This document shows, in pieces, positions 1 to 64,000 of a DNA stretch of 64,000 bases; position 1 is the stretch's first letter, and every line of letters begins with the position of its first letter. A program made the translations under genes and the position numbers. The stretch is taken from contig JBAWUJ010000105.1 in NCBI GenBank assembly GCA_037176705.1, positions 1 through 64,000 of the forward strand, given 5' to 3'. The stretch comes from Molossus alvarezi. Lineage: Eukaryota; Chordata; Mammalia; Chiroptera; Molossidae. Below the pieces are notes generated by a model. It made no database searches. It saw nothing but the letters and a program-made list of their open reading frames with translations, and was not told the DNA's origin.

Positions 1-238
1 GGATCCTCACGCTCTAGGCTTCATGGAAGTGACTTTGGTGCCACTGAAGTGAAGAGTTCTAACACAGTTCATTTGGAATAGGTTTGCTTTGTATACACTC
101 TCCTACAATCAAACTAGAGTGAAAAGTATATCTAAGGACCTATCAAGAGTCAGGTTGCCACATTTCCTTAAATCAATACTTTCCACAACTGTACTAAGAA
201 CACGTAATCTGAAAAACAGTACAACAGTGGTGGTTCCA

Positions 239-255
239 TTTCGTGTGAAGCGGGT
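239..255 (+). other. CENP-B box, unit 1
   Basis: TTTCGTGTGAAGCGGGT. All nine essential positions of the CENP-B box core NTTCGNNNNANNCGGGN are present. Against the human consensus YTTCGTTGGAARCGGGA the mismatches are at positions 7, 8 and 17 only. In mammals the box is bound by the DNA-binding domain of centromere protein B. With equal base frequencies, a nine-position match on either strand is expected about 0.015 times per 1,962-bp unit, so chance is unlikely but not excluded. Binding itself is inferred. Confidence 0.8.
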
Positions 256-1098
256 ATAGCCCTAGAATCTTTTTCTCAATATTTGGATATTATTTGAAGA
301 AGGTTGTCTATTGGAACACAGTTCTTTGAACAGGGAGCCACTGAACAGTCCATTGGACACTGCAACCGTACTAAGGTTTCCATTCTGCTCTTGAACTGAA
401 TGTTATTCTTTTATTCTGCACAGAAAGAACACCAGTCATGAACACTTTTGACTATGCCTGTGTATTCCCATAGGTTCTTCGGGGAAATAGTCTTGAAACA
501 AGTGAATCCATGACCATTGTTCCAAGACTGACACTCCCTCTTTTAAATTGATCCCTTTTTTGTTCTAATGGCTGGAATAAGGGGATTGATTACTTGTCAG
601 TTATCAAGAAATAGGCTGAATTTGTCACAGGGAATTAGAAAGATAGGTTCGGGAGATTCCAGTCATGAACAAGGTACAATTCCAGCATTTCACAATGATG
701 GAATGCGTTTACTTTGAATTCTCAGGAGAAAACAGGTATCTACTCTTTATGTTTTTTGAGGAAATCGGTACAAACAGTGAAATGTATGATGGTTCCTAGA
801 ATGACACTGATTCATTCGGTCACAACTTTAAAGAATGTGTGTAGAACTGAATAGGGTATAGATTTCCATGACCTGAACATTGCCCTAACCAATGTGTTTG
901 ATTTCTGCAGCCCAGCCTTTGTTGGATATCAAGATGACTCATAGACACTTCCAGGCAAACAACACGTATGCAGGGCTAAAAGGTAGTATGTGGAAAGGCT
1001 GCCTCATCAACTAGTACAGGTTGACTTTCCTGGTCACATAGGAAAGAAGGTAGACACCTGCATTTACTTACAACACTGTTTGACACTCCAATGTAAAG

Positions 1099-1120
1099 TA
1101 TGCCCTGCACACCGGGCATA
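1099..1120. other. 7-bp stem-loop (representative copy, unit 1)
   Basis: TATGCCC (1099-1105) and GGGCATA (1114-1120) are perfect inverted arms around an 8-base loop. The sequence recurs in every unit. A weaker 5-bp dyad, TGCAC-AA-GTGCA, lies 40 bp further on at 1160-1171. Whether either extrudes in vivo is unknown. Confidence 0.6.
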
Positions 1121-1605
1121 GTTAGTGTGTAAGTAATTGAAATGGATACCCAGGTCCACTGCACAAGTGCATTTTCTCTAGAACACTCCTCTTGTTCTCA
1201 TTCACAGAGATGTTCAATGTGAAAAACCCTTGGTATTGTCAGTGTCTTCCAATTCATGGATTTACTCCTTGCATGGAGACAACCAATGTTTCAACTACAT
1301 CACTTTAGATGTGTTCAGTTTCACTGCTTCAAGAATGCACATATGTGACACCAGTAGTTATCAATCTTTCCATTGATTCAGTCTTGGCCATACGCTGGTT
1401 CACTGTTCTGAGTAAGAATCATGTGAAACCAACTGCTACAGCAGAAACCAAACTTTTTCCAAGTATCGCCTTCAAAAATGGGCTTCAAGACGATCCAATC
1501 TTTGAAACCATGAACAACACAGAACACAAAAAGGGATAACTTTTGATGCTACACATAAGTGTGCTCTGTCCTAGTTGTTCTTTCCATGATATGACTGGAT
1601 CTCCC

Positions 1606-1613
1606 TATAAAAC
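1606..1613 (+). promoter_or_regulatory. TATA-like element (representative copy, unit 1)
   Basis: CCCTATAAAACGAGG holds a TATAAAAC that fits the TATA-box consensus on the + strand. The same octamer is present in every complete unit I checked. No initiator, downstream gene or other promoter element is recognisable, so use as a satellite-transcript promoter is only a possibility. Confidence 0.25.
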
Positions 1614-1728
1614 GAGGAGAATGTACGTTAAAGTGTTCATGTTCCTCAAGATCTGTGCATTCACTTAACCCAAATGGAAATATTCATTCATTCCCACAGT
1701 TGTTTGACTAGAACATGTTTGTTCACAC

Positions 1729-1762
1729 TTTCCCTGCAAAGGTACTTAACTTCCCAGGGAAA
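1729..1762. other. 8-bp stem-loop (representative copy, unit 1)
   Basis: TTTCCCTG (1729-1736) and CAGGGAAA (1755-1762) are perfect inverted arms around an 18-base loop. Many units from 18 onward have CACACCTTCCC, which removes the outermost pair and leaves a 7-bp stem. Confidence 0.55.
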
Positions 1763-1962
1763 AACATGCCACTGAGTGAATGTGGCCCCTGGCTCTCACA
1801 GAGTTTTGCCCATAGTTCAGTATATCCAAGACTGCACCAGCAAGTCTTGTGTCTCTTTGTCTGGAACAAGGGAAAGAAACTTACACTGCGAAGTTTCAGT
1901 GTGATTCCACCTTTACAAATGGACATTTCTTAAACACTTAACCAAAATAATATACGCTTTGA

Positions 1963-3924
1963 GGATCCTCACGCTCTAGGCTTCATGGAAGTGACTTTGG
2001 TGCCACTGAAGTGAAGAGTTCTAACACAGTTCATTTGGAATAGGTTTGCTTTGTATACACTCTCCTACAATCAAACTAGAGTGAAAAGTATATCTAAGGA
2101 CCTATCAAGAGTCAGGTTGCCACATTTCCTTAAATCAATACTTTCCACCACTGTACTAAGAACACGTAATCTGAAAAACAGTACAACAGTGGTGGTTCCA
2201 TTTCGTGTGAAGCGGGTATAGCCCTAGAATCTTTTTGTCAATATTTGGATATTATTTGAAGAAGGTTGTCTATTGGAACACAGTTCTTTGAACAGGGAGC
2301 CACTGAACAGTCCATTGGACACTGCAACCGTACAAAGGTTTCCATTCTGCTCTTGAACTGAATGTTATTCTATTATTCTGCACAGAAAGAACACCAGTCA
2401 TGAACACTTTTGACTATGCCTGTGTATTCCCATAGGTTCTTCGGGGAAATAGTCTTGAAACAAGTGAATCCATGACCATTGTTCCAAGACTGACACTCCC
2501 TCTTTTAAATTGATCCCTTTTTTGTTCTAATGGCTGGAATAAGGGGATTGAGTACTTGTCAGTTATCAAGAAATAGGCTGAATTTGTCACAGGGAATTAG
2601 AAAGATAGGTTCGGGAGATTCCAGTCATGAACAAGGTACAATTCCAGCCTTTCACAATGATGGAATGCGTTTACTTTGAATTCTCAGGAGAAATCAGGTA
2701 TCTACTCCTTATGTTTTTTGAGGAAATCGGTACAACCAGTGAAATGTATGATGGTTCCTAGAATGACACTGATTCATTCGGTCACAACTTTAAAGAATGT
2801 GTGTAGAACTGAATAGGGTATAGATTTCCATGACCTGAACATTGCCCTAACCAATGTGTTTGATTTCTGCAGCCCAGCCTTTGTTGGATATCAAGATGAC
2901 TCATAGACACTTCCAGGCAAACAACACGTATGCAGGGCTAAAAGGTAGTATGTGAAAAGGCTGCCTCATCAACTAGTACAGGTTGACTTTCCTGGTCACA
3001 TAGGAAAGAAGGTAGACACCTGCATTTTCTTACAACACTGATTGACACTCCAATGTAAAGTATGCCCTGCACACCGGGCATAGTTAGTGTGTAAGTAATT
3101 GAAATGGATACCCAGGTCCACTGCACAAGTGCATTTTCTCTAGAACACTCCTCTTGTTCTCATTCACAGAGATGTTCAATGTGAAAAACCCTTGGTATTG
3201 TCAGTGTCTTCCAATTCATGGATTTACTCCTTGCATGGAGACAACCAATGTTTCAACTACATCACTTTAGATGTGTTCAGTTTCACTGCTTCAAGAATGC
3301 ACATATGTGACACCAGTAGTTATCAATCTTTCCATTGATTCAGTCTTGGCCATACGCTGGTTCACTGTTCTGAGTAAGAATCATGTGAAACCAACTGCTA
3401 CAGCAGAAACCAAACTTTTTCCAAGTATCGTCTTCAAAAATAGGCTTCAAGACGATCCAATCTTTGAAACCATGAACAACACAGAACACAAAAAGGGATA
3501 ACTTTTGATGCTACACATAAGTGTGCTCTGTCCTACTTGTTCTTTCCATGATATGACTGGATCTCCCTATAAAACGAGGAGAATGTACGTTAAAGTGTTC
3601 ATGTTCCTCAAGATCTGTGCATTCACTTAACCCAAATGGAAATATTCATTCATTCCCACAGTTGTTTGACTAGAACATGTTTGTTCACACTTTCCCTGCA
3701 AAGGTACTTAACTTCCCAGGGAAAAACATGCCACTGAGTGAATGTGGCCCCTGGCTCTCACAGAGTTTTGCCCATAGTTCAGTATATCCAAGACTGCACC
3801 AGCAAGTCTTGAGTCTCTTTGTCTGGATCAAGGGAAAGAAACTTACACTGCGAAGTTTCAGTGTGATTCCACCTTTACAAATGGACATTTCTTAAACACT
3901 TAACCAAAACAACATATGCTTTGA
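1963..3924 (+). repeat. Satellite unit 2 (1,962 bp)
   Basis: The 5' half carries TTTTGTCAAT, shared only with unit 5. The 3' half carries AGCCTTTCAC, GAAATCAGG, GTGAAAAGGC, TGTCCTACTTG and TGGATCAAGGG, all shared with unit 3. Ends AACAACATATG. Private variants are ACACTGATTGAC and GTATCGTCTTC. Confidence 0.97.
2201..2217 (+). other. CENP-B box, unit 2
   Basis: Identical 17-mer, 1,962 bp after box 1. Confidence 0.8.
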
Positions 3925-5885
3925 GGATCCTCACGCTCTAGGCTTCATGGAAGTGACTTTGGTGCCACTGAAGTGAAGAGTTCTAACACAGTTCATTTGG
4001 AATAGGTTTGCTTTGTATACACTCTCCTACAATCAAACTAGAGTGAAAAGTATATCTAAGGACCTATCAAGAGTCAGGTTGCCACATTTCCTTAAATCAA
4101 TACTTTCCACAACTGTACTAAGAACACGTAATCTGAAAAACAGTACAACAGTGGTGGTTCCATTTCGTGTGAAGCGGGTATAGCCCTAGAATCTTTTTCT
4201 CAATATTTGGATATTATTTGAAGAAGGTTGTCTATTGGAACACAGTTCTTTGAACAGGGAGCCACTGAACAGTCCATTGGACTCTGCAACGTACAAAGGT
4301 TTCCATTCTGCTCTTCAACTGAATGTTATTCTATTATTCTGCACAGAAAGAACACCAGTCATGAACACTTTTGACTATGCCTGTGTATTCCCATAGGTTC
4401 TTCGGGGAAATAGTCTTGAAACAAGTGAATCCATGACCATTGTTCCAAGACTGACACTCCCTCTTTTAAATTGATCCCTTTTTTGTTCTAATGGCTGGAA
4501 TAAGGGGATTGAGTACTTGTCAGTTATCAAGAAATAGGCTGAATTTGTCACAGGGAATTAGAAAGATAGGTTCGGGAGATTCCAGTCATGAACAAGGTAC
4601 AATTCCAGCCTTTCACAATGATGGAATGCGTTTACTTTGAATTCTCAGGAGAAATCAGGTATCTACTCCTTATGTTTTTTGAGGAAATCGGTACAACCAG
4701 TGAAATGTATGATGGTTCCTAGAATGACACTGATTCATTCGGTCACAACTTTAAAGAATGTGTGTAGAACTGAATAGGGTATAGATTTCCATGACCTGAA
4801 CATTGCCCTAACCAATGTGTTTGATTTCTGCAGCCCAGCCTTTGTTGGATATCAAGATGACTCATAGACACTTCCAGGCAAACAACACGTATGCAGGGCT
4901 AAAAGGTAGTATGTGAAAAGGCTGCCTCATCAACTAGTACAGGTTGACTTTCCTGGTCACATAGGAAAGAAGGTAGACACCTGCATTTTCTTACAACACT
5001 GTTTGACACTCCAATGTAAAGTATGCCCTGCACACCGGGCATAGTTAGTGTGTAAGTAATTGAAATGGATACCCAGGTCCACTGCACAAGTGCATTTTCT
5101 CTAGAACACTCCTCTTGTTCTCATTCACAGAGATGTTCAATGTGAAAAACCCTTGGTATTGTCAGTGTCTTCCAATTCATGGATTTACTCCTTGCATGGA
5201 GACAACCAATGTTTCAACTACATCACTTTAGATGTGTTCAGTTTCACTGCTTCAAGAATGCACATATGTGACACCAGTAGTTATCAATCTTTCCATTGAT
5301 TCAGTCTTGGCCATACGCTGGTTCACTGTTCTGAGTAAGAATCATGTGAAACCAACTGCTACAGCAGAAACCAAACTTTTTCCAAGTATCGCCTTCAAAA
5401 ATAGGCTTCAAGACGATCCAATCTTTGAAACCATGAACAACACAGAACACAAAAAGGGATAACTTTTGATGCTACACATAAGTGTGCTCTGTCCTACTTG
5501 TTCTTTCCATGATATGACTGGATCTCCCTATAAAACGAGGAGAATGTACGTTAAAGTGTTCATGTTCCTCAAGATCTGTGCATTCACTTAACCCAAATGG
5601 AAATATTCATTCATTCCCACAGTTGTTTGACTAGAACATGTTTGTTCACACTTTCCCTGCAAAGGTACTTAACTTCCCAGGGAAAAACATGCCACTGAGT
5701 GAATGTGGCCCCTGGCTCTCACAGAGTTTTGCCCATAGTTCAGTATATCCAAGACTGCACCAGCAAGTCTTGAGTCTCTTTGTCTGGATCAAGGGAAAGA
5801 AACTTACACTGCGAAGTTTCAGTGTGATTCCACCTTTACAAATGGACATTTCTTAAACACTTAACCAAAACAACATATGCTTTGA
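3925..5885 (+). repeat. Satellite unit 3 (1,961 bp)
   Basis: One C is missing in the CAACCGTAC region. GGACTCTGCAAC and CTCTTCAACTG are shared only with unit 4, and the 3' half matches unit 2. Confidence 0.97.
4163..4179 (+). other. CENP-B box, unit 3
   Basis: Identical 17-mer, 1,962 bp after box 2. Confidence 0.8.
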
Positions 5886-7846
5886 GGATCCTCACGCTCT
5901 AGGCTTCATGGAAGTGACTTTGGTGCCACTGAAGTGAAGAGTTCTAACACAGTTCATTTGGAATAGGTTTGCTTTGTATACACTCTCCTACAATCAAACT
6001 AGAGTGAAAAGTATATCTAAGGACCTATCAAGAGTCAGGTTGCCACATTTCCTTAAATCAATACTTTCCACAACTGTACTAAGAACACGTAATCTGAAAA
6101 ACAGTACAACAGTGGTGGTTCCATTTCGTGTGAAGCGGGTATAGCCCTAGAATCTTTTTCTCAATATTTGGATATTATTTGAAGAAGGTTGTCTATTGGA
6201 ACACAGTTCTTTGAACAGGGAGCCACTGAACAGTCCATTGGACTCTGCAACGTACAAAGGTTTCCATTCTGCTCTTCAACTGAATGTTATTCTATTATTC
6301 TGCACAGAAAGAACACCAGTCATGAACACTTTTGACTATGCCTGTGTATTCCCATAGGTTCTTCGGGGAAATAGTCTTGAAACAAGTGAATCCATGACCA
6401 TTGTTCCAAGACTGACACTCCCTCTTTTAAATTGATCCCTTTTTTGTTCTAATGGCTGGAATAAGGGGATTGAGTACTTGTCAGTTATCAAGAAATAGGC
6501 TGAATTTGTCACAGGGAATTAGAAAGATAGGTTCGGGAGATTCCAGTCATGAACAAGGTACAATTCCAGCATTTCACAATGATGGAATGCGTTTACTTTG
6601 AATTCTCAGGAGAAAACAGGTATCTACTCCTTATGTTTTTTGAGGAAATCGGTACAAACAGTGAAATGTATGATGGTTCCTAGAATGACACTGATTCATT
6701 CGGTCACAACTTTAAAGAATGTGTGTAGAACTGAATAGGGTATAGATTTCCATGACCTGAACATTGCCCTAACCAATGTGTTTGATTTCTGCAGCCCAGC
6801 CTTTGTTGGATATCAAGATGACTCATAGACACTTCCAGGCAAACAACACGTATGCAGGGCTAAAAGGTAGTATGTGGAAAGGCTGCCTCATCAACTAGTA
6901 CAGGTTGACTTTCCTGGTCACATAGGAAAGAAGGTAGACACCTGCATTTACTTACAACACTGTTTGACACTCCAATGTAAAGTATGCCCTGCACACCGGG
7001 CATAGTTAGTGTGTAAGTAATTGAAATGGATACCCAGGTCCACTGCACAAGTGCATTTTCTCTAGAACACTCCTCTTGTTCTCATTCACAGAGATGTTCA
7101 ATGTGAAAAACCCTTGGTATTGTCAGTGTCTTCCAATTCATGGATTTACTCCTTGCATGGAGACAACCAATGTTTCAACTACATCACTTTAGATGTGTTC
7201 AGTTTCACTGCTTCAAGAATGCACATATGTGACACCAGTAGTTATCAATCTTTCCATTGATTCAGTCTTGGCCATACGCTGGTTCACTGTTCTGAGTAAG
7301 AATCATGTGAAACCAACTGCTACAGCAGAAACCAAACTTTTTCCAAGTATCGCCTTCAAAAATGGGCTTCAAGACGATCCAATCTTTGAAACCATGAACA
7401 ACACAGAACACAAAAAGGGATAACTTTTGATGCTACACATAAGTGTGCTCTGTCCTAGTTGTTCTTTCCATGATATGACTGGATCTCCCTATAAAACGAG
7501 GAGAATGTACGTTAAAGTGTTCATGTTCCTCAAGATCTGTGCATTCACTTAACCCAAATGGAAATATTCATTCATTCCCACAGTTGTTTGACTAGAACAT
7601 GTTTGTTCACACTTTCCCTGCAAAGGTACTTAACTTCCCAGGGAAAAACATGCCACTGAGTGAATGTGGCCCCTGGCTCTCACAGAGTTTTGCCCATAGT
7701 TCAGTATATCCAAGACTGCACCAGCAAGTCTTGTGTCTCTTTGTCTGGAACAAGGGAAAGAAACCTACACTGCGAAGTTTCAGTGTGATTCCACCTTTAC
7801 AAATGGACATTTCTTAAACACTTAACCAAAATAATATACGCTTTGA
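5886..7846 (+). repeat. Satellite unit 4 (1,961 bp), mosaic
   Basis: The 5' part, with its 1-bp deletion and CTCTTCAACTG (to about 6280), is unit-3 type. From AGCATTTCAC (6571) onward it is unit-1 type, including the AATAATATACG end. A recombination breakpoint therefore lies between about 6280 and 6571. Private C near 7765. Confidence 0.96.
6124..6140 (+). other. CENP-B box, unit 4
   Basis: Identical 17-mer, 1,961 bp after box 3. Confidence 0.8.
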
Positions 7847-9808
7847 GGATCCTCACGCTCTAGGCTTCATGGAAGTGACTTTGTTGCCACTGAAGTGAAG
7901 AGTTCTAACACAGTTCATTTGGAATAGGTTTGCTTTGTATACACTCTCCTACAATCAAACTAGAGTGAAAAGTATATCTAAGGACCTATCAAGAGTCAGG
8001 TTGCCACATTTCCTTAAATCAATACTTTCCACCACTGTACTAAGAACACGTAATCTGAAAAACAGTACAACAGTGGTGGTTCCATTTCGTGTGAAGCGGG
8101 TATAGCCCTAGAATCTTTTTGTCAATATTTGGATATTATTTGAAGAAGGTTGTCTATTGGAACACAGTTCTTTGAACAGGGAGCCACTGAACAGTCCATT
8201 GGACACTGCAACCGTACAAAGGTTTCCATTCTGCTCTTGAACTGAATGTTATTCTATTATTCTGCACAGAAAGAACACCAGTCATGAACACTTTTGACTA
8301 TGCCTGTGTATTCCCATAGGTTCTTCGGGGAAATAGTCTTGAAACAAGTGAATCCATGACCATTGTTCCAAGACTGACACTCCCTCTTTTAAATTGATCC
8401 CTTTTTTGTTCTAATGGCTGGAATAAGGGGATTGAGTACTTGTCAGTTATCAAGAAATAGGCTGAATTTGTCACAGGGAATTAGAAAGATAGGTTCGGGA
8501 GATTCCAGTCATGAACAAGGTACAATTCCAGCATTTCACAATGATGGAATGCGTTTACTTTGAATTCTCAGGAGAAAACAGGTATCTACTCCTTATGTTT
8601 TTTGAGGAAATCGGTACAACCAGTGAAATGTATGATGGTTCCTAGAATGACACTGATTCATTCGGTCACAACTTTAAAGAATGTGTGTAGAACTGAATAG
8701 GGTATAGATTTCCATGACCTGAACATTGCCCTAACCAATGTGTTTGATTTCTGCAGCCCAGCCTTTGTTGGATATCAAGATGACTCATAGACACTTCCAG
8801 GCAAACAACACGTATGCAGGGCTAAAAGGTAGTATGTGGAAAGGCTGCCTCATCAACTAGTACAGGTTGCCTTTCCTGGTCACATAGGAAAGAAGGTAGA
8901 CACCTGCATTTACTTACAACACTGTTTGACACTCCAATGTAAAGTATGCCCTGCACACCGGGCATAGTTAGTGTGTAAGTAATTGAAATGGATACCCAGG
9001 TCCACTGCACAAGTGCATTTTCTCTAGAACACTCCTCTTGTTCTCATTCACAGAGATGTTCAATGTGAAAAACCCTTGGTATTGTCAGTGTCTTCCAATT
9101 CATGGATTTACTCCTTGCATGGAGACAACCAATGTTTCAACTACATCACTTTAGATGTGTTCAGTTTCACTGCTTCAAGAATGCACATATGTGACACCAG
9201 TAGTTATCAATCTTTCCATTGATTCAGTCTTGGCCATACGCTGGTTCACTGTTCTGAGTAAGAATCATGTGAAACCAACTGCTACAGCAGAAACCAAACT
9301 TTTTCCAAGTATCGCCTTCAAAAATGGGCTTCAAGACGATCCAATCTTTGAAACCATGAACAACACAGAACACAAAAAGGGATAACTTTTGATGCTACAC
9401 ATAAGTGTGCTCTGTCCTAGTTGTTCTTTCCATGATATGACTGGATCTCCCTATAAAACGAGGAGAATGTACGTTAAAGTGTTCATGTTCCTCAAGATCT
9501 GTGCATTCACTTAACCCAAATGGAAATATTCATTCATTCCCACAGTTGTTTGACTAGAACATGTTTGTTCACACTTTCCCTGCAAAGGTACTTAACTTCC
9601 CAGGGAAAAACATGCCACTGAGTGAATGTGGCCCCTGGCTCTCACAGAGTTTTGCCCATAGTTCAGTATATCCAAGACTTCACCAGCAAGTCTTGTGTCT
9701 CTTTGTCTGGAACAAGGGAAAGAAACTTACACTGCGAAGTTTCAGTGTGATTCCACCTTTACAAATGGACATTTCTTAAACACTTAACCAAAACAATATA
9801 TGCTTTGA
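7847..9808 (+). repeat. Satellite unit 5 (1,962 bp)
   Basis: The 5' half shares TTTTGTCAAT with unit 2. Private T at about 7884 (TTGTTGCC). First unit with GTTGCCTTTCC. Near its end it has AAGACTTCACC, shared with units 6 and 10. Confidence 0.97.
8085..8101 (+). other. CENP-B box, unit 5
   Basis: Identical 17-mer, 1,961 bp after box 4. Confidence 0.8.
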
Positions 9809-52957: not shown

Positions 52958-54919
52958 GGATCCTCACGCTCTAGGCTTCATGGAAGTGACTTTGGTGCCA
53001 CTGAAGTGAAGAGTTCTAACACAGTTCATTTGGAATAGGTTTGCTTTGTATACACTCTCCTACAATCAAACTAGAGTGAAAAGTATATCTAAGGACCTAT
53101 CAAGAGTCAGGTTGCCACATTTCCTTAAATCAATACTTTCCACAACTGTACTAAGAACACGTAATCTGAAAAACAGTACAACAGTGGTGGTTCCATTTCG
53201 TGTGAAGCGGGTATAGCCCTAGAATCTTTTTCTCAATATTTGGATATTATTTGAAGAAGGTTGTCTATTGGAACACAGTTCTTTGAACAGGGAGCCACTG
53301 AACAGTCCATTGGACACTGCAACCGTACAAAGGTTTCCATTCTGCTCTTGAACTGAATGTTATTCTATTATTCTGCACAGAAAGAACACCAGTCATGAAC
53401 ACTTTTGACTATGCCTGTGTATTCCCATAGGTTCTTCGGGGAAATAGTCTTGAAACAAGTGAATCCATGACCATTGTTCCAAGACTGACACTCCCTCTTT
53501 TAAATTGATCCCTTTTTTGTTCTAATGGCTGGAATAAGGGGATTGAGTACTTGTCAGTTATCAAGAAATAGGCTGAATTTGTCACAGGGAATTAGAAAGA
53601 TAGGTTCGGGAGATTCCAGTCATGAACAAGGTACAATTCCAGCATTTCACAATGATGGAATGCGTTTACTTTGAATTCTCAGGAGAAAACAGGTATCTAC
53701 TCCTTATGTTTTTTGAGGAAATCGGTACAAACAGTGAAATGTATGATGGTTCCTAGAATGACACTGATTCATTCGGTCACAACTTTAAAGAATGTGTGTA
53801 GAACTGAATAGGGTATAGATTTCCATGACCTGAACATTGCCCTAACCAATGTGTTTGATTTCTGCAGCCCAGCCTTTGTTGGATATCAAGATGACTCATA
53901 GACACTTCCAGGCAAACAACACGTATGCAGGGCTAAAAGGTAGTATGTGGAAAGGCTGCCTCATCAACTAGTACAGGTTGACTTTCCTGGTCACATAGGA
54001 AAGAAGGTAGACACCTGCATTTACTTACAACACTGTTTGACACTCCAATGTAAAGTATGCCCTGCACACCGGGCATAGTTAGTGTGTAAGTAATTGAAAT
54101 GGATACCCAGGTCCACTGCACAAGTGCATTTTCTCTAGAACACTCCTCTTGTTCTCATTCACAGAGATGTTCAATGTGAAAAACCCTTGGTATTGTCAGT
54201 GTCTTCCAATTCATGGATTTACTCCTTGCATGGAGACAACCAATGTTTCAACTACATCACTTTAGATGTGTTCAGTTTCACTGCTTCAAGAATGCACATA
54301 TGTGACACCAGTAGTTATCAATCTTTCCATTGATTCAGTCTTGGCCATACGCTGGTTCACTGTTCTGAGTAAGAATCATGTGAAACCAACTGCTACAGCA
54401 GAAACCAAACTTTTTCCAAGTATCGCCTTCAAAAATAGGCTTCAAGACGATCCAATCTTTGAAACCATGAACAACACAGAACACAAAAAGGGATAACTTT
54501 TGATGCTACACATAAGTGTGCTCTGACCTAGTTGTTCTTTCCATGATATGACTGGATCTCCCTATAAAACGAGGAGAATGTACGTTAAAGTGTTCATGTT
54601 CCTCAAGATCTGTGCATTCACTTAACCCAAATGGAAATATTCATTCATTCCAACAGTTGTTTGACTAGAACATGTTTGTTCACACCTTCCCTGCAAAGGT
54701 ACTTAACTTCCCAGGGAAAAACATGCCACTGAGTGAATGTGGCCCCTGGCTCTCACAGAGTTTTGCCCATCGTTCAGTGTATCCAAGACTGCACCAGCAA
54801 GTCTTGTGTCTCTTTGTCTGGAACAAGGGAAAGAAACTTACACTGCGAAGTTTCAGTGTGATTCCACCTTTACAAATGGACATTTCTTAAACACTTAACC
54901 AAAACAACATATGCTTTGA
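52958..54919 (+). repeat. Satellite unit 28 (1,962 bp)
   Basis: Second member of the first two-unit repeat: ACAAACAGTG, CAACTACATC and CAGTGTATCC, as in unit 32. Confidence 0.97.
53196..53212 (+). other. CENP-B box, unit 28
   Basis: Identical 17-mer, 1,962 bp after box 27. Confidence 0.8.
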
Positions 54920-56881
54920 AAATCCTCACGCTCTAGGCTTCATGGAAGTGACTTTGGTGCCACTGAAGTGAAGAGTTCTAACACAGTTCATTTGGAATAG
55001 GTTTGCTTTGTATACACTCTCCTACAATCAAACTAGAGTGAAAAGTATATCTAAGGACCTATCAAGAGTCAGGTTGCCACATTTCCTTAAATCAATACTT
55101 TCCACAACTGTACTAAGAACACGTAATCTGAAAAACAGTACAACAGTGGTGGTTCCATTTCGTGTGAAGCGGGTATAGCCCTAGAATCTTTTTCTCAATA
55201 TTTGGATATTATTTGAAGAAGGTTGTCTATTGGAACACAGTTCTTTGAACAGGGAGCCACTGAACAGTCCATTGGACACTGCAACCGTACAAAGGTTTCC
55301 ATTCTGCTCTTGAACTGAATGTTATTCTATTATTCTGCACAGAAAGAACACCAGTCATGAACACTTTTGACTATGCCTGTGTATTCCCATAGGTTCTTCG
55401 GGGAAATAGTCTTGAAACAAGTGAATCCATGACCATTGTTCCAAGACTGACACTCCCTCTTTTAAATTGATCCCTTTTTTGTTCTAATGGCTGGAATAAG
55501 GGGATTGAGTACTTGTCAGTTATCAAGAAATAGGCTGAATTTGTCACAGGGAATTAGAAAGATAGGTTCGGGAGATTCCAGTCATGAACAAGGTACAATT
55601 CCAGCATTTCACAATGATGGAATGTGTTTACTTTGAATTCTCAGGAGAAAACAGGTATCTACTCCTTATGTTTTTTGAGGAAATCGGTACAACCAGTGAA
55701 ATGTATGATGGTTCCTAGAATGACACTGATTCATTCGGTCACAACTTTAAAGAATGTGTGTAGAACTGAATAGGGTATAGATTTCCATGACCTGAACATT
55801 GCCCTAACCAATGTGTTTGATTTCTGCAGCCCAGCCTTTGTTGGATATCAAGATGACTCATAGACACTTCCAGGCAAACAACACGTATGCAGGGCTAAAA
55901 GGTAGTATGTGGAAAGGCTGCCTCATCAACTAGTACAGGTTGACTTTCCTGGTCACATAGGAAAGAAGGTAGACACCTGCATTTACTTACAACACTGTTT
56001 GACACTCCAATGTAAAGTATGCCCTGCACACCGGGCATAGTTAGTGTGTAAGTAATTGAAATGGATACCCAGGTCCACTGCACAAGTGCATTTTCTCTAG
56101 AACACTCCTCTTGTTCTCATTCACAGAGATGTTCAATGTGAAAAACCCTTGGTATTGTCAGTGTCTTCCAATTCATGGATTTACTCCTTGCTTGGAGACA
56201 ACCAATGTTTCAACTGCATCACTTTAGATGTGTTCAGTTTCACTGCTTCAAGAATGCACATATGTGACACCAGTAGTTATCAATCTTTCCATTGATTCAG
56301 TCTTGGCCATACGCTGGTTCACTGTTCTGAGTAAGAATCATGTGAAACCAACTGCTACAGCAGAAACCAAACTTTTTCCAAGTATCGCCTTCAAAAATAG
56401 GCTTCAAGACGATCCAATCTTTGAAACCATGAACAACACAGAACACAAAAAGGGATAACTTTTGATGCTACACATAAGTGTGCTCTGACCTAGTTGTTCT
56501 TTCCATGATATGACTGGATCTCCCTATAAAACGAGGAGAATGTCCGTTAAACTGTTCATGTTCCTCAAGATCTGTGCATTCACTTAACCCAAATGGAAAT
56601 ATTCATTCATTCCAACAGTTGTTTGACTAGAACATGTTTGTTCACACCTTCCCTGCAAAGGTACTTAACTTCCCAGGGAAAAACATGCCACTGAGTGAAT
56701 GTGGCCCCTGGCTCTCACAGAGTTTTGCCCATCGTTCAGTATATCCAAGACTGCACCAGCAAGTCTTGAGTCTCTTTGTCTGGAACAAGGGAAAGAAACT
56801 TACACTGCGAAGTTTCAGTGTGATTCCACCTTTACAAATGGACATTTCTTAAACACTTAACCAAAACAACATATGCTTTGA
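54920..56881 (+). repeat. Satellite unit 29 (1,962 bp)
   Basis: The BamHI site is destroyed (AAATCC replaces GGATCC). Carries TGTCCGTTAAACTG, as in unit 27. Private GAATGTGTTTAC (loss of a CpG near 55624) and CTTGCTTGGAG. Confidence 0.97.
55158..55174 (+). other. CENP-B box, unit 29
   Basis: Identical 17-mer, 1,962 bp after box 28; intact although this unit lost its BamHI site and a CpG elsewhere. Confidence 0.8.
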
Positions 56882-58843
56882 GGATCCTCACGCTCTAGGC
56901 TTCATGGAAGTGACTTTGGTGCCACTGAAGTGAAGAGTTCTAACACAGTTCATTTGGAATAGGTTTGCTTTGTATACACTCTCCTACAATCAAACTAGAG
57001 TGAAAAGTATATCTAAGGACCTATCAAGAGTCAGGTTGCCACATTTCCTTAAATCAATACTTTCCACAACTGTACTAAGAACACGTAATCTGAAAAACAG
57101 TACAACAGTGGTGGTTCCATTTCGTGTGAAGCGGGTATAGCCCTAGAATCTTTTTCTCAATATTTGGATATTATTTGAAGAAGGTTGTCTATTGGAACAC
57201 AGTTCTTTGAACAGGGAGCCACTGAACAGTCCATTGGACACTGCAACCGTACAAAGGTTTCCATTCTGCTCTTGAACTGAATGTTATTCTATTATTCTGC
57301 ACAGAAAGAACACCAGTCATGAACACTTTTGACTATGCCTGTGTATTCCCATAGGTTCTTCGGGGAAATAGTCTTGAAACAAGTGAATCCATGACCATTG
57401 TTCCAAGACTGACACTCCCTCTTTTAAATTGATCCCTTTTTTGTTCTAATGGCTGGAATAAGGGGATTGAGCACTTGTCAGTTATCAAGAAATAGGCTGA
57501 ATTTGTCACAGGGAATTAGAAAGATAGGTTCGGGAGATTCCAGTCATGAACAAGGTACAATTCCAGCATTTCACAATGATGGAATGCGTTTACTTTGAAT
57601 TCTCAGGAGAAAACAGGTATCTACTCCTTATGTTTTTTGAGGAAATCGGTACAAACAGTGAAATGTATGATGGTTCCTAGAATGACACTGATTCATTCGG
57701 TCACAACTTTAAAGAATGTGTGTAGAACTGAATAGGGTATAGATTTCCATGACCTGAACATTGCCCTAACCAATGTGTTTGATTTCTGCAGCCCAGCCTT
57801 TGTTGGATATCAAGATGACTCATAGACACTTCCAGGCAAACAACACGTATGCAGGGCTAAAAGGTAGTATGTGGAAAGGCTGCCTCATCAACTAGTACAG
57901 GTTGACTTTCCTGGTCACATAGGAAAGAAGGTAGACACCTGCATTTACTTACAACACTGTTTGACACTCCAATGTAAAGTATGCCCTGCACACCGGGCAT
58001 AGTTAGTGTGTAAGTAATTGAAATGGATACCCAGGTCCACTGCACAAGTGCATTTTCTCTAGAACACTCCTCTTGTTCTCATTCACAGAGATGTTCAATG
58101 TGAAAAACCCTTGGTATTGTCAGTGTCTTCCAATTCATGGATTTACTCCTTGCATGGAGACAACCAATGTTTCAACTACATCACTTTAGATGTGTTCAGT
58201 TTCACTGCTTCAAGAATGCACATATGTGACACCAGTAGTTATCAATCTTTCCATTGATTCAGTCTTGGCCATACGCTGGTTCACTGTTCTGAGTAAGAAT
58301 CATGTGAAACCAACTGCTACAGCAGAAACCAAACTTTTTCCAAGTATCGCCTTCAAAAATAGGCTTCAAGACGATCCAATCTTTGAAACCATGAACAACA
58401 CAGAACACAAAAAGGGATAACTTTTGATGCTACACGTAAGTGTGCTCTGACCTAGTTGTTCTTTCCATGATATCACTGGATCTCCCTATAAAACGAGGAG
58501 AATGTACGTTAAAGTGTTCATGTTCCTCAAGATCTCTGCATTCACTTAACCCAAATGGAAATATTCATTCATTCCAACAGTTGTTTGACTAGAACATGTT
58601 TGTTCACACTTTCCCTGCAAAGGTACTTAACTTCCCAGGGAAAAACATGCCACTGAGTGAATGTGGCCCCTGGCTCTCACAGAGTTTTGCCCATCGTTCA
58701 GTATATCCAAGACTGCACCAGCAAGTCTTGAGTCTCTTTGTCTGGAACAAGGGAAAGAAACTTACACTGCGAAGTTTCAGTGTGATTCCACCTTTACAAA
58801 TGGACATTTCTTAAACACTTAACCAAAACAACATATGCTTTGA
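56882..58843 (+). repeat. Satellite unit 30 (1,962 bp)
   Basis: Carries GAGCACTTG, as in units 21 and 26. Private CTACACGTAAG, GATATCACTGG and GATCTCTGCATT between about 58433 and 58540. Confidence 0.97.
57120..57136 (+). other. CENP-B box, unit 30
   Basis: Identical 17-mer, 1,962 bp after box 29. Confidence 0.8.
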
Positions 58844-60805
58844 GGATCCTCACGCTCTAGGCTTCATGGAAGTGACTTTGGTGCCACTGAAGTGAAGAGT
58901 TCTAACACAGTTCATTTGGAATAGGTTTCCTTTGTATACACTCTCCTACAATCAAACTAGAGTGAAAAGTATATCTAAGGACCTATCAAGAGTCAGGTTG
59001 CCACATTTCCTTAAATCAATACTTTCCACAACTGTACTAAGAACACGTAATCTGAAAAACAGTACAACAGTGGTCGTTCCATTTCGTGTGAAGCGGGTAT
59101 AGCCCTAGAATCTTTTTCTCAATATTTGGATATTATTTGAAGAAGGTTGTCTATTGGAACACAGTTCTTTGAACAGGGAGCCACTGAACAGTCCATTGGA
59201 CACTGCAACCGTACAAAGGTTTCCATTCTGCTCTTGAACTGAATGTTATTCTATTATTCTGCACAGAAAGAACACCAGTCATGAACACTTTTGACTATGC
59301 CTGTGTATTCCCATAGGTTCTTCGGGGAAATAGTCTTGAAACAAGTGAATCCATGACCATTGTTCCAAGACTGACACTCCCTCTTTTAAATTGATCCCTT
59401 TTTTGTTCTAATGGCTGGAATAAGGGGATTGAGTACTTGTCAGTTATCAAGAAATAGGCTGAATTTGTCACAGGGAATTAGAAAGATAGGTTCGGGAGAT
59501 TCCAGTCATGAACAAGGTACAATTCCAGCATTTCACAATGTTGGAATGCGTTTACTTTGAATTCTCAGGAGAAAACAGGTATCTACTCCTTATGTTTTTT
59601 GAGGAAATCGGTACAACCAGTGAAATGTATGATGGTTCCTAGAATGACACTGATTCATTCGGTCACAACTTTAAAGAATGTGTGTAGAACTGAATAGGGT
59701 ATAGATTTCCATGACCTGAACATTGCCCTAACCAATGTGTTTGATTTCTGCAGCCCAGCCTTTGTTGGATATCAAGATGACTCATAGACACTTCCAGGCA
59801 AACAACACGTATGCAGGGCTAAAAGGTAGTATGTGGAAAGGCTGCCTCATCAACTAGTACAGGTTGACTTTCCTGGTCACATAGGAAAGAAGGTAGACAC
59901 CTGCATTTACTTACAACACTGTTTGACACTCCAATGTAAAGTATGCCCTGCACACCGGGCATAGTTAGTGTGTAAGTAATTGAAATGGATACCCAGGTCC
60001 ACTGCACAAGTGCATTTTCTCTAGAACACTCCTCTTGTTCTCATTCACAGAGATGTTCAATGTGAAAAACCCTTGGTATTGTCAGTGTCTTCCAATTCAT
60101 GGATTTACTCCTTGCATGGAGACAACCAATGTTTCAACTGCATCACTTTAGATGTGTTCAGTTTCACTGCTTCAAGAATGCACATATGTGACACCAGTAG
60201 TTATCAATCTTTCCATTGATTCAGTCTTGGCCATACGCTGGTTCACTGTTCTGAGTAAGAATCATGTGAAACCAACTGCTACAGCAGAAACCAAACTTTT
60301 TCCAAGTATCGCCTTCAAAAATAGGCTTCAAGACGATCCAATCTTTGAAACCATGAACAACACAGAACACATAAAGGGATAACTTTTGATGCTACACATA
60401 AGTGTGCTCTGACCTAGTTGTTCTTTCCATGATATGACTGGATCTCCCTATAAAACGAGGAGAATGTACGTTAAACTGTTCATGTTCCTCAAGATCTGTG
60501 CATTCACTTAACCCACATGGAAATATTCATTCATTCCAACAGTTGTTTGACTAGAACATGTTTGTTCACACCTTCCCTGCAAAGGTACTTAACTTCCCAG
60601 GGAAAAACATGCCACTGAGTGAATGTGGCCCCTGGCTCTCACAGAGTTTTGCCCATCGTTCAGTATATCCAAGACTGCACCAGCAAGTCTTGAGTCTCTT
60701 TGTCTGGAACAAGGGAAAGAAACTTACACTGCGAAGTTTCAGTGTGATTCCACCTTTACAAATGGACATTTCTTAAACACTTAACCAAAACAACATATGC
60801 TTTGA
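58844..60805 (+). repeat. Satellite unit 31 (1,962 bp)
   Basis: Odd-member haplotype (ACAACCAGTG, CAACTGCATC, GTTAAACTG). Carries many private changes: GGTTTCCTTTG, GTGGTCGTTCC, AATGTTGGAATG, CACATAAAGGG and ACCCACATGG. Confidence 0.97.
59082..59098 (+). other. CENP-B box, unit 31
   Basis: Identical 17-mer, 1,962 bp after box 30; a private G-to-C change lies just upstream (TGGTCGTTCC) but the box is untouched. Confidence 0.8.
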
Positions 60806-62767
60806 GGATCCTCACGCTCTAGGCTTCATGGAAGTGACTTTGGTGCCACTGAAGTGAAGAGTTCTAACACAGTTCATTTGGAATAGGTTTGCTTTGTATA
60901 CACTCTCCTACAATCAAACTAGAGTGAAAAGTATATCTAAGGACCTATCAAGAGTCAGGTTGCCACATTTCCTTAAATCAATACTTTCCACAACTGTACT
61001 AAGAACACGTAATCTGAAAAACAGTACAACAGTGGTGGTTCCATTTCGTGTGAAGCGGGTATAGCCCTAGAATCTTTTTCTCAATATTTGGATATTATTT
61101 GAAGAAGGTTGTCTATTGGAACACAGTTCTTTGAACAGGGAGCCACTGAACAGTCCATTGGACACTGCAACCGTACAAAGGTTTCCATTCTGCTCTTGAA
61201 CTGAATGTTATTCTATTATTCTGCACAGAAAGAACACCAGTCATGAACACTTTTGACTATGCCTGTGTATTCCCATAGGTTCTTCGGGGAAATAGTCTTG
61301 AAACAAGTGAATCCATGACCATTGTTCCAAGACTGACACTCCCTCTTTTAAATTGATCCCTTTTTTGTTCTAATGGCTGGAATAAGGGGATTGAGTACTT
61401 GTCAGTTATCAAGAAATAGGCTGAATTTGTCACAGGGAATTAGAAAGATAGGTTCGGGAGATTCCAGTCATGAACAAGGTACAATTCCAGCATTTCACAA
61501 TGATGGAATGCGTTTACTTTGAATTCTCAGGAGAAAACAGGTATCTACTCCTTATGTTTTTTGAGGAAATCGGTACAAACAGTGAAATGTATGATGGTTC
61601 CTAGAATGACACTGATTCATTCGGTCACAACTTTAAAGAATGTGTGTAGAACTGAATAGGGTATAGATTTCCATGACCTGAACATTGCCCTAACCAATGT
61701 GTTTGATTTCTGCAGCCCAGCCTTTGTTGGATATCAAGATGACTCATAGACACTTCCAGGCAAACAACACGTATGCAGGGCTAAAAGGTAGTATGTGGAA
61801 AGGCTGCCTCATCAACTAGTACAGGTTGACTTTCCTGGTCACATAGGAAAGAAGGTAGACACCTGCATTTACTTACAACACTGTTTGACACTCCAATGTA
61901 AAGTATGCCCTGCACACCGGGCATAGTTAGTGTGTAAGTAATTGAAATGGATACCCAGGTCCACTGCACAAGTGCATTTTCTCTAGAACACTCCTCTTGT
62001 TCTCATTCACAGAGATGTTCAATGTGAAAAACCCTTGGTATTGTCAGTGTCTTCCAATTCATGGATTTACTCCTTGCATGGAGACAACCAATGTTTCAAC
62101 TACATCACTTTAGATGTGTTCAGTTTCACTGCTTCAAGAATGCACATATGTGACACCAGTAGTTATCAATCTTTCCATTGATTCAGTCTTGGCCATACGC
62201 TGGTTCACTGTTCTGAGTAAGAATCATGTGAAACCAACTGCTACAGCAGAAACCAAACTTTTTCCAAGTATCGCCTTCAAAAATAGGCTTCAAGACGATC
62301 CAATCTTTGAAACCATGAACAACACAGAACACAAAAAGGGATAACTTTTGATGCTACACATAAGTGTGCTCTGTCCTAGTTGTTCTTTCCATGATATGAC
62401 TGGATCTCCCTATAAAACGAGGAGAATGTACGTTAAAGTGTTCATGTTCCTCAAGATCTGTGCATTCACTTAACCCAAATGGAAATATTCATTCATTCCA
62501 ACAGTTGTTTGACTAGAACATGTTTGTTCACACCTTCCCTGCAAAGGTACTTAACTTCCCAGGGAAAAACATGCCACTGAGTGAATGTGGCCCCTGGCTC
62601 TCACAGAGTTTTGCCCATCGTTCAGTGTATCCAAGACTGCACCAGCAAGTCTTGTGTCTCTTTGTCTGGAACAAGGGAAAGAAACTTACACTGCGAAGTT
62701 TCAGTGTGATTCCACCTTTACAAATGGACATTTCTTAAACACTTAACCAAAACAACATATGCTTTGA
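60806..62767 (+). repeat. Satellite unit 32 (1,962 bp)
   Basis: Even-member haplotype, nearly identical to unit 28 but with TGTCCTAG where unit 28 has TGACCTAG. No private change seen. Confidence 0.97.
61044..61060 (+). other. CENP-B box, unit 32
   Basis: Identical 17-mer, 1,962 bp after box 31. Confidence 0.8.
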
Positions 62768-64000
62768 GGATCCTCACGCTCTAGGCTTCATGGAAGTGAC
62801 TTTGGTGCCACTGAAGTGAAGAGTTCTAACACAGTTCATTTGGAATAGGTTTGCTTTGTATACACTCTCCTACAATCAAACTAGAGTGAAAAGTATATCT
62901 AAGGACCTATCAAGAGTCAGGTTGCCACATTTCCTTAAATCAATACTTTCCACAACTGTACTAAGAACACGTAATCTGAAAAACAGTACAACAGTGGTGG
63001 TTCCATTTCGTGTGAAGCGGGTATAGCCCTAGAATCTTTTTCTCAATATTTGGATATTATTTGAAGAAGGTTGTCTATTGGAACACAGTTCTTTGAACAG
63101 GGAGCCACTGAACAGTCCATTGGACACTGCAACCGTACAAAGGTTTCCATTCTGCTCTTGAACTGAATGTTATTCTATTATTCTGCATAGAAAGAACACC
63201 AGTCATGAACACTTTTGACTATGCCTGTGTATTCCCATAGGTTCTTCGGGGAAATAGTCTTGAAACAAGTGAATCCATGACCATTGTTCCAAGACTGACA
63301 CTCCCTCTTTTAAATTGATCCCTTTTTTGTTCTAATGGCTGGAATAAGGGGATTGAGTACTTGTCAGTTATCAAGAAATAGGCTGAATTTGTCACAGGGA
63401 ATTAGAAAGATAGGTTCGGGAGATTCCAGTCATGAACAAGGTACAATTCCAGCATTTCACAATGATGGAATGCGTTTACTTTGAATTCTCAGGAGAAAAC
63501 AGGTATCTACTCCTTATGCTTTTTGAGGAAATCGGTACAAACAGTGAAATGTATGATGGTTCCTAGAATGACACTGATTCATTCGGTCATAACTTTAAAG
63601 AATGTGTGTAGAACTGAATAGGGTATAGATTTCCATGACCTGAACATTGCCCTAACCAATGTGTTTGATTTCTGCAGCCCAGCCTTTGTTGGATATCAAG
63701 ATGACTCATAGACACTTCCAGGCAAACAACACATATGCAGGGCTAAAAGGTAGTATGTGGAAAGGCTGCCTCATCAACTAGTACAGGTTGACTTTCCTGG
63801 TCACATAGGAAAGAAGGTAGACACCTGCATTTACTTACAACACTGTTTGACACTCCAATGTAAAGTATGCCCTGCACACCGGGCATAGTTAGTGTGTAAG
63901 TAATTGAAATGGATACCCAGGTCCACTGCACAAGTGCATTTTCTCTAGAACACTCCTCTTGTTCTCATTCACAGAGATGTTCAATGTGAAAAACCCTTGG
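62768..64000 (+). repeat. Satellite unit 33, partial (1,233 bp, cut by the window end)
   Basis: The first 63% of a unit in perfect phase, so the array continues beyond the window. Private CTGCATAGAA, TTATGCTTTTTG, GGTCATAAC and ACACATATGC; the last loses a CpG. Confidence 0.97.
63006..63022 (+). other. CENP-B box, unit 33
   Basis: Identical 17-mer, 1,962 bp after box 32; last box in the window. Confidence 0.8.

Follow-up and report, generated by a model that had tools for sequence, protein, structure and literature searches.

Introduction

The window, the 64,000-bp stretch of Molossus alvarezi DNA analyzed here, raises the question of how a ~2-kb tandem repeat came to carry a CENP-B box and what followed once it did. 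According to excerpts of a 2025 review, CENP-B is widely kept in mammals, only some of which have boxes in their centromeres, and a spread of boxes by centromere drive has been proposed (PMC12321929).

Results

A homogeneous 1,962-bp satellite fills the window

By unit alignment, the window (1–64000, plus strand) is a head-to-tail array of 32 full units of 1,958 to 1,962 bp and one partial unit of 1,233 bp. The partial 33rd unit (62768–64000, plus strand) is cut by the window edge, and the array runs on along the same contig (C102), where all three other stretches that were read (64,001–74,000, 200,001–210,000, and 214,901–216,963, the contig end) contain it as well. We chose the unit phase to put the box described below at unit position 239 to 255. 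The first unit (1–1962, plus strand) is representative of the consensus, which has a GC content of 40% and a CpG observed/expected ratio of 0.23. Pairwise divergence among the 32 full units averaged 0.70% (range, 0 to 1.27%), and 1,877 of the 1,962 columns in the unit alignment showed no variation. The ~1.96-kb satellite described in a sequence-only reading of this DNA was borne out, with 1,962-bp units that are 0 to 1.3% apart filling the window.

As to internal structure, only one duplication of ~160 bp stands out in the unit. It is an old one, with copies at 388–543 and 661–816 (both plus strand) whose score exceeded that of plus-strand shuffles; a profile search of the unit did not reveal a complete third one. 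An apparent 12-mer inside the unit, with a period of ~163 bp and suggested by 11 offset peaks in a lenient band alignment, was rejected because reverse and reverse-complement controls scored equal or higher. Tandem Repeats Finder returned nothing in the window because its longest period, 500, is below the unit size. No Rfam families or tRNA genes were found in the window, open reading frames in its first 4 kb encode only 62 to 76 amino acids, and the satellite had no match among plasmid records and no exact 30-mer match in IMG/VR.

Each unit in the window carries a complete CENP-B core

The 17-mer TTTCGTGTGAAGCGGGT occurs as 33 exact copies in the window, all on the plus strand, and no further site was found in the window at up to 3 mismatches. 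From unit 1, where the core pattern was also used to locate the box, to the partial unit 33, the copies lie in unit order at 239–255, 2201–2217, 4163–4179, 6124–6140, 8085–8101, 10047–10063, 12009–12025, 13971–13987, 15930–15946, 17892–17908, 19854–19870, 21816–21832, 23775–23791, 25737–25753, 27696–27712, 29658–29674, 31620–31636, 33582–33598, 35544–35560, 37502–37518, 39463–39479, 41425–41441, 43387–43403, 45349–45365, 47311–47327, 49272–49288, 51234–51250, 53196–53212, 55158–55174, 57120–57136, 59082–59098, 61044–61060, and 63006–63022. With box-to-box spacings of 1,958 to 1,962 bp and 9 of 9 core bases present at 33 of 33 sites, the earlier claims that the box sits at the same offset in all units and matches every essential base both hold.

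The 9-base core pattern identified an identical set of 33 sites, where dinucleotide shuffles of the window would give 0.03. All 33 stem from amplification of a single unit and are fairly counted as one independent core match per 1,962 bp, for which the same shuffles predict ~0.001 per unit. An invariant 17-mer is by itself not unusual at 0.7% unit divergence; longer invariant runs are present elsewhere in the window units, and several CpGs outside the box are preserved at least as well as those within it. The 17-mer also matches 10 prokaryote contigs in GTDB, which we take as chance.

The satellite forms a multimegabase array near the midpoint of a 276-Mb contig

In the genome as a whole (2.504 Gb), the exact 17-mer is present in 13,598 copies, which at one per 1.96 kb corresponds to ~26.7 Mb of satellite, or ~1.1% of the total. 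Judging from its SINEs, the genome is probably that of a bat. The 9-base core pattern has 17,257 matches genome-wide. On contig C1 (276,547,744 bp), the 143 Mb before the array contain 48 core matches, equivalent to ~840 background matches when extrapolated to the genome. We estimate from this C1 background, which GC-rich contigs may exceed, that ~95% of the genome's core matches lie in this satellite. The reversed core pattern (6,378 + 7,311 matches genome-wide) was not used as background, given its high count and the fact that it holds no CpG.

The satellite was present in 25 of 25 C1 stretches sampled over 143.12 to 149.80 Mb and absent from those at 142.90, 143.05, 143.065, 143.08, 143.105, 150.0, 155.0, and 165.0 Mb. 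This places a multimegabase array at 52 to 54% of the C1 span, near the midpoint, in the sense of the midpoint of the contig, in whose first 10 kb no telomere repeat was found. Inside the array the orientation flips and 100 consecutive bases are N, which shows that it is not one uniform assembled block. Subfamilies of the satellite are contig-specific, and HOR-like blocks were detected in which boxes are ~13.62 kb apart, as was a 6.165-kb trimer. The genome also contains a CENP-B gene, identified by one PF09026 match (192.5 bits, E 2.9e-54) in a readable part that excludes the DNA-binding domain.

We infer that the array position on C1 marks the centromere. The suggestion of a candidate centromeric satellite with a long unit is strengthened by the mid-C1 array and the CENP-B gene; binding of CENP-B or CENP-A stays at the level of a prediction. 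A pericentromeric or heterochromatic satellite adjoining the true centromere, with the active kinetochore seated in a different repeat or in unique DNA, seems to us rather unlikely. Such a location would be compatible with the flips and the run of N inside the array, and the centromere position is itself deduced from the middle of one contig; against it stand the presence of the satellite in every one of the 25 stretches sampled across 6.7 Mb and the share of the genome's box cores that, by extrapolation, it holds.

Older units lack the box

We sampled satellite layers on C1 and on the unplaced contig C102 and scored the box in 57 units that lie beyond the window and have the box site covered; hits not covering the site were dropped, and L011 to L018 were left out, as they had been selected by the box itself. 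The box was intact in all 11 units with at least 98% identity to the window consensus, in 32 of 37 at 93 to 98% identity, and in none of the 9 below 93%, and it was absent or broken in 14 of the 57 overall. The earlier statement that every unit carries a box is therefore correct within the window and incorrect for the family, whose older layers are without it. Box-bearing subfamilies differ from one another by 4.5 to 5.2%, and the box is mostly intact in each. A relic at 143.095 Mb of C1, 78% identical, is boxless and reads TGACCTGTGAACTGAG. The boxless letters of this relic recur in the older undeleted units at positions 241 and 251 and, in two of three, at position 240.

An ancestral box that was lost by decay in the older layers has in its favor the CpG-type decay seen in the sample: TTTTGTGTGAACCGGGT was found in 3 and TTTCGTGTGAAGTGGGT in 1 of the 57 units. 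That history is nevertheless very unlikely, since the boxless letters just listed are common to the relic and older undeleted units, the change between TGACG and TTTCG is not a CpG-decay difference, and units without the box branch basally to the box-bearing clade even when the box is masked, as described next.

Box-bearing units form one clade, with derived changes densest at the box

An IQ-TREE phylogeny was built from 45 sequences with the 78%-identical relic as outgroup; these were taken from 59 rows longer than 1,200 bases by thinning window-type units, and shorter rows, including L051, were left out. All 29 box-bearing monomers in the set formed one clade, nested among boxless units, with support of 97 to 100. 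The same clade was recovered, still nested among boxless units, with support of 95 to 100 when unit positions 229 to 265 were masked.

Derived changes common to three box-bearing subfamilies were densest at the box. Only 3 of 1,311 17-bp windows of the unit contained at least 3 shared derived changes, and these start at positions 235 to 237. Two of 22 shared derived sites fall inside the 17-mer (p 0.028), or 3 of 23 if position 240 is counted (p 0.003). A gap without lineage changes around the box (unit 174–334) was marginal (p 0.046). In the derived-change and position analyses, the stretches L045, L050, L052, L063, L067, and unit L023_868 were without subfamily assignment.

All four box changes raise the match to the canonical site YTTCGTTGGAARCGGGA, from 10 of 17 to 14 of 17 positions, a directional statistic subject to ascertainment bias, since a perfect box was what drew attention to the site. 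We regard it as highly improbable that the box match is a coincidence unrelated to CENP-B. What agrees perfectly is the 9-base core only, within a 14-of-17 match, and the small chance expectation per unit is not impossible over many satellites; on the other side are a full core match in a multimegabase satellite whose host genome has a CENP-B gene and, subject to the bias just mentioned, the direction of the four changes.

Within the box-bearing clade, units of the window type and those of the C1 main type both have AAGCGGGT, sharing C>G at unit position 250, whereas in the tree the C1 main type groups with the AACCGGGT edge type (support, 100); AAGCGGGT therefore arose twice or reverted. The C>G change is one of five such sites common to subfamily pairs. 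As proof of selection, the shared derived change at position 250 is weak, with other subfamily pairs sharing 1 and 3.

We also considered neutral hitchhiking, in which a chance box in one unit was amplified by unequal exchange and CENP-B may bind it without any advantage. One origin suffices for this, as the single clade of 29 box-bearing tree monomers would have it; any founder 17-mer would be near-invariant now, given the proportion of invariant columns in the window, and the preservation of the box CpGs is matched by that of several others. We nonetheless judge it unlikely, because the derived changes cluster at the box, with the p value depending on the threshold, and because amplification of subfamilies as divergent as those found here left the box mostly intact in each, whereas it was intact in none of the nine older units sampled.

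Comparison with known satellites

With consensus sequences as the reference, the unit scored within the shuffled range against both alpha satellite and mouse minor satellite, in keeping with the initial impression that it is not recognizably related to either: 4 of 60 shuffles reached the alignment score for alpha satellite, and for the minor satellite, where no similarity was found, 27 of 60 scored as high. With a unit of 1,962 bp, the ~171-bp monomer with alphoid homology that would place it in alpha satellite is lacking. In the literature searched, we found no occurrence of the letters of the box 17-mer and no match for "1962 bp" combined with satellite and centromere terms. The mouse minor satellite (~120 bp) has a box in its repeat unit, and the unit here is far longer.

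Like primate alpha satellite, whose features are in part those given in excerpts of PMC12321929, this satellite carries its box at a constant offset within homogeneous arrays and has a layered array with older divergent units and contig-specific subfamilies, here with HOR-like blocks; unlike it, the unit is 1,962 bp rather than a 171-bp monomer within HORs. The alphoid DNA of New World monkeys (340 to 350 bp) offers a parallel for the de novo formation of a box inside a centromeric repeat that already existed. In the excerpts of that study, CENP-B binding is documented by ChIP-qPCR, whereas here it is predicted from sequence, and the information was insufficient to choose between two scenarios for the origin of the box (PMC4904201). 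The present case differs in satellite, order, and unit length, and in that boxless units and an outgroup-like relic are found in the same array.

Other mammalian centromeric satellites have been searched for boxes. Excerpts describe sloth SATCHO2 (~2,292 bp), which is similar in unit length, as having a motif split in two segments ~140 bp apart (PMC7644632), and Bovidae satellite I of Drung cattle as having a motif with 5 or 6 of 9 core bases (PMC9008013), in contrast to the 9 of 9 found here. Manatee TMAsat (~684 bp) resembles the present satellite in being centromeric, making up ~0.87% of the genome, and occurring in HOR forms; its box-like motifs, unlike ours, match 5 to 6 of 9 core bases (excerpts of PMC8421680). 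A bat satellite with a CENP-B motif has been reported, to judge from a title cited in an excerpt of PMC13003292.

Discussion

Taken together, these data suggest that a centromeric satellite probably gained a CENP-B box and that variants carrying it went on to occupy much of the arrays. What can be read from the DNA itself is the array, its place midway along C1, the core of the box, the lack of a box in older layers, and the nesting of box-bearing units in the phylogeny; binding of CENP-B to the box and a transmission advantage of box-bearing variants are what the model would add. Starting from a boxless ~1.95-kb repeat, a few point changes at one site would have produced a complete CENP-B box. 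Host CENP-B would bind this box once per ~1.96 kb, dimerize, and bridge units, and the bound protein could steady CENP-A/CENP-C chromatin. Box-bearing variants would then be favored in transmission, through centromere drive or better segregation, and would spread by unequal exchange.

A more specific version holds that a nonalphoid ~2-kb bat satellite passed from boxless TGACGTGTGAACTGGGT to full-core TTTCGTGTGAACCGGGT and TTTCGTGTGAAGCGGGT under selection or drive, that box-bearing subfamilies replaced boxless ones on more than one chromosome, and that the origin was independent of those in primates and mice. We consider this version evenly balanced between right and wrong.

If the box works, a perfect box would function at a density of one per ~2 kb; the densities given in excerpts of PMC4904201 are one per ~340 to 350 bp in New World monkeys and one in every other 171-bp monomer in humans. 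Boxless units, two full-core versions of the box, and homogeneous box-bearing arrays lie side by side in one array, and the gain of the box, the order of the changes, and the takeover are therefore directly testable in a living species. A single genome may thus record how a centromere signal arose and took over.

A tandem array with a CENP-B box in every unit

The whole 64-kb window is a single tandem array of 32 full units and one partial unit of 1,233 bp. The full units measure 1,958 to 1,962 bp, which bears out the ~1.96-kb satellite periodicity proposed in the sequence-only reading, and diverge pairwise by 0.70% on average (range, 0 to 1.27%). With a GC content of 40% and a CpG observed/expected ratio of 0.23, the unit is AT-rich and CpG-poor, and Rfam and tRNA searches of the window returned zero matches. 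The same reading had placed a CENP-B box core at a constant offset in every unit, and this also holds: the 17-mer TTTCGTGTGAAGCGGGT (here, the box) is present at 33 of 33 unit sites, at unit position 239–255 in the phase that we chose, and it meets all nine bases of the core NTTCGNNNNANNCGGGN as stated in the relevant passages of PMC4904201 and PMC11230421. Shuffles gave a chance expectation of 0.03 core matches per 64 kb, but because all units share descent from one, a fair expectation is ~0.001 per unit. Invariance of the 17-mer in the window alone is no proof, since 1,877 of the 1,962 columns are invariant among the window units.

Self-alignment of the unit showed an internal duplication of ~160 bp, with copies at 388–543 and 661–816, ~275 bp apart. 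Its score was 177 (maxima in 20 shuffles, 152 for plus-strand and 172 for minus-strand alignments), or 146 with stricter gaps (six shuffles, maximum 122; reversed, 115; reverse-complement, 112). This duplication is old and may be all that is left of a shorter repeat from which the unit arose.

Origin of the box

Beyond the window, we took a census of 57 units that span the box site, and scored their identity to the window consensus over unit 141–1000 with the box excluded. The box was intact in 11/11 units at ≥98% identity, in 32/37 at 93 to 98%, and in 0/9 below 93%. Five boxless units fell in the middle class: three carry TTTTGTGTGAACCGGGT and one TTTCGTGTGAAGTGGGT, both single CpG-type changes from the box, and one has an older-type segment. 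Among the nine divergent units, two carry TGACGTGTGAACTGGGT, one carries TCACGTGTGAACTGAGG, and the other six lack a few bases of the site through a short deletion. A relic copy at 143.095 Mb of the 276.5-Mb contig C1, 78% identical to the unit, has TGACCTGTGAACTGAG there.

In trees built with FastTree, rooted on the relic, and with IQ-TREE (45 sequences, 1,000 ultrafast bootstraps), all 29 box-bearing monomers and the three with CpG-dead boxes formed one clade with support of 97 to 100. The same clade was recovered with unit 229–265 masked (support, 95 to 100), and therefore the box itself is not its cause. Eight of the nine boxless sequences, the relic included, lie outside this clade. The ninth, L023_868 (868–3099 of stretch L023), is an edge-subfamily unit with an older boxless segment at the box site; it looks like a chimera, and its box site suggests gene conversion between satellite layers. 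Taken together, these sequence comparisons indicate that the CENP-B box was probably gained in this satellite.

Changes at the box site

Polarisation by the relic at 1,309 sites, with p values that assume independent sites, yielded 22 derived changes common to the three box-bearing subfamilies (window type, C1 main type, and C1 edge type). The 17-mer contains two of the 22 (permutation p 0.028), and each of these is a core change (p 0.009). Position 240 fell below threshold, as one of the three older units without the deletion disagrees there with the other two; counting it, 3/23 changes lie in the 17-mer (p 0.003) and 4/23 within 237–255 (p 0.0002). At least three common changes occur in 3 of 1,311 17-bp windows, all starting at 235–237. 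The four box changes are each toward the 17-bp canonical box, the match rising through 10, 13, and 14 of 17. Completion of the core by four random changes has a p of 0.0001, a biased value because the site was noticed for being a perfect box. Against selection, several other CpGs in the unit are retained as well as those of the box, and the gap that surrounds the box in the distribution of lineage changes has marginal significance (p 0.046). A C>G at 250, common to two subfamilies, is one of five pair-shared sites; it arose twice or reverted, since the tree joins the C1 main type with the edge type, which lacks it (support, 100).

Abundance and position in the genome

The assembly containing the window (C102:1–64000) comprises 2,504,496,771 bases in 285 contigs. 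It holds 13,598 exact copies of the 17-mer (5,284 plus, 8,314 minus) and none of the backwards control, which at one box per 1.96 kb amounts to ~26.7 Mb of satellite, or 1.1% of the assembly. Genome-wide, the 9-base core has 17,257 matches, and 48 in the ~143 Mb of C1 before the array, from which a whole-genome background of ~840 was extrapolated. By this extrapolation, ~95% of the genome's cores would lie within the satellite, some as the variant TTTCGTGTGAACCGGGT. A CENP-B gene was found in one place (PF09026, 192.5 bits); its readable portion excludes the DNA-binding domain.

Nine 10-kb genome samples were searched with SINE motifs. They gave 16 VES-type matches, 10 for the related CHR motif, which looks much like VES, three for one Can-SINE fragment, and one or two each for short motifs of generic 7SL, MIR, and sciurid type; Alu, B1, B2, ID, ERE, PRE1, and BOV-tA motifs gave none. 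Together with a repeat recovered in the same search, these counts make the host probably a bat. Separately, the cytochrome b family had 107 genome matches, on contigs C9, C29, C36, C41–C45, C61, C62, C199, C200, and others. The best 13 each have nine TGA codons as their sole stops, resembling young nuclear mitochondrial DNA copies, and scores are near-identical across many contigs, as if spread by recent segmental duplication.

C1 (276,547,744 bp) is the longest among the eight contigs listed. Satellite was present in 25/25 stretches sampled from 143.12 to 149.80 Mb (10 kb, n = 6; 2 kb, n = 10; 2.1 kb, n = 9), or 52 to 54% along the contig, and was absent from stretches at 142.90, 143.05, 143.065, 143.08, and 143.105 Mb and at 150.0, 155.0, and 165.0 Mb. 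We infer that C1 is a whole chromosome and the satellite position its centromere. Telomere repeat was not found in the first 10 kb of C1; the first 10 kb of contig C12 (1–10000, stretch L038) is nearly entirely telomere repeat, with 832 CCCTAACCCTAA 12-mers. The C1 array runs in plus orientation to 146.3 Mb, minus in 8/8 stretches from 146.7 to 148.8 Mb (L049–L053, L063, L064, and L028, one with a 100-base N run), and plus in four from 149.2 Mb.

Subfamilies and higher-order blocks

The satellite subfamilies are contig-specific. The window type (contig C102) and the C1 main type are 4.5 to 5.0% apart, versus 0.4 to 1.4% within each. A 29-mer that marks the window type has 4,393 copies genome-wide; among the matches listed, in contig order, the first are on C8 and C11 and none on C1. 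The C1 edge has a 6,165-bp trimer in which two of the boxes are live and the third is CpG-dead. In stretches L023 and L024 (C1:143.12–143.14 Mb), a 2.23- to 2.24-kb unit form with ~270 added bases past unit position ~1047 alternates with 1,963-bp units, making the trimer. At C1:143.23–143.32 Mb, five of six box spacings are ~13,624 bp and the other 14,467, one box per ~seven units; this spacing reflects higher-order blocks.

Comparison with known box-bearing centromeres

In Pipistrellus kuhli, a satellite that bears a CENP-B motif has reportedly been described, in a work cited by title in PMC13003292. The box letters TTTCGTGTGAAGCGGGT were not found in a literature text search, and the passages retrieved on bat satellites with CENP-B contained no description of this unit. 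In the portion of PMC12467311 on satellites of two phyllostomid bats, those of Carollia have no match among putative centromeric satellites. According to sections of a 2025 review (PMC12321929), only a subset of mammals have CENP-B boxes, with independent box spread in New World monkeys and box loss in horses; in the pertinent section of PMC4904201 the origin of its boxes is left undecided. Box binding, dimer bridging, and steadying of CENP-A/CENP-C are established for human alpha satellite, as set out in parts of PMC12321929 and PMC4904201.

By analogy, the satellite most likely works like other box-bearing centromeres, with putative CENP-B binding, drive, and centromere identity. Host CENP-B would bind every box, its dimers would bridge boxes, and the bridged CENP-B would steady CENP-A/CENP-C chromatin. 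Box-bearing arrays would then gain in transmission, and unequal exchange would spread them.
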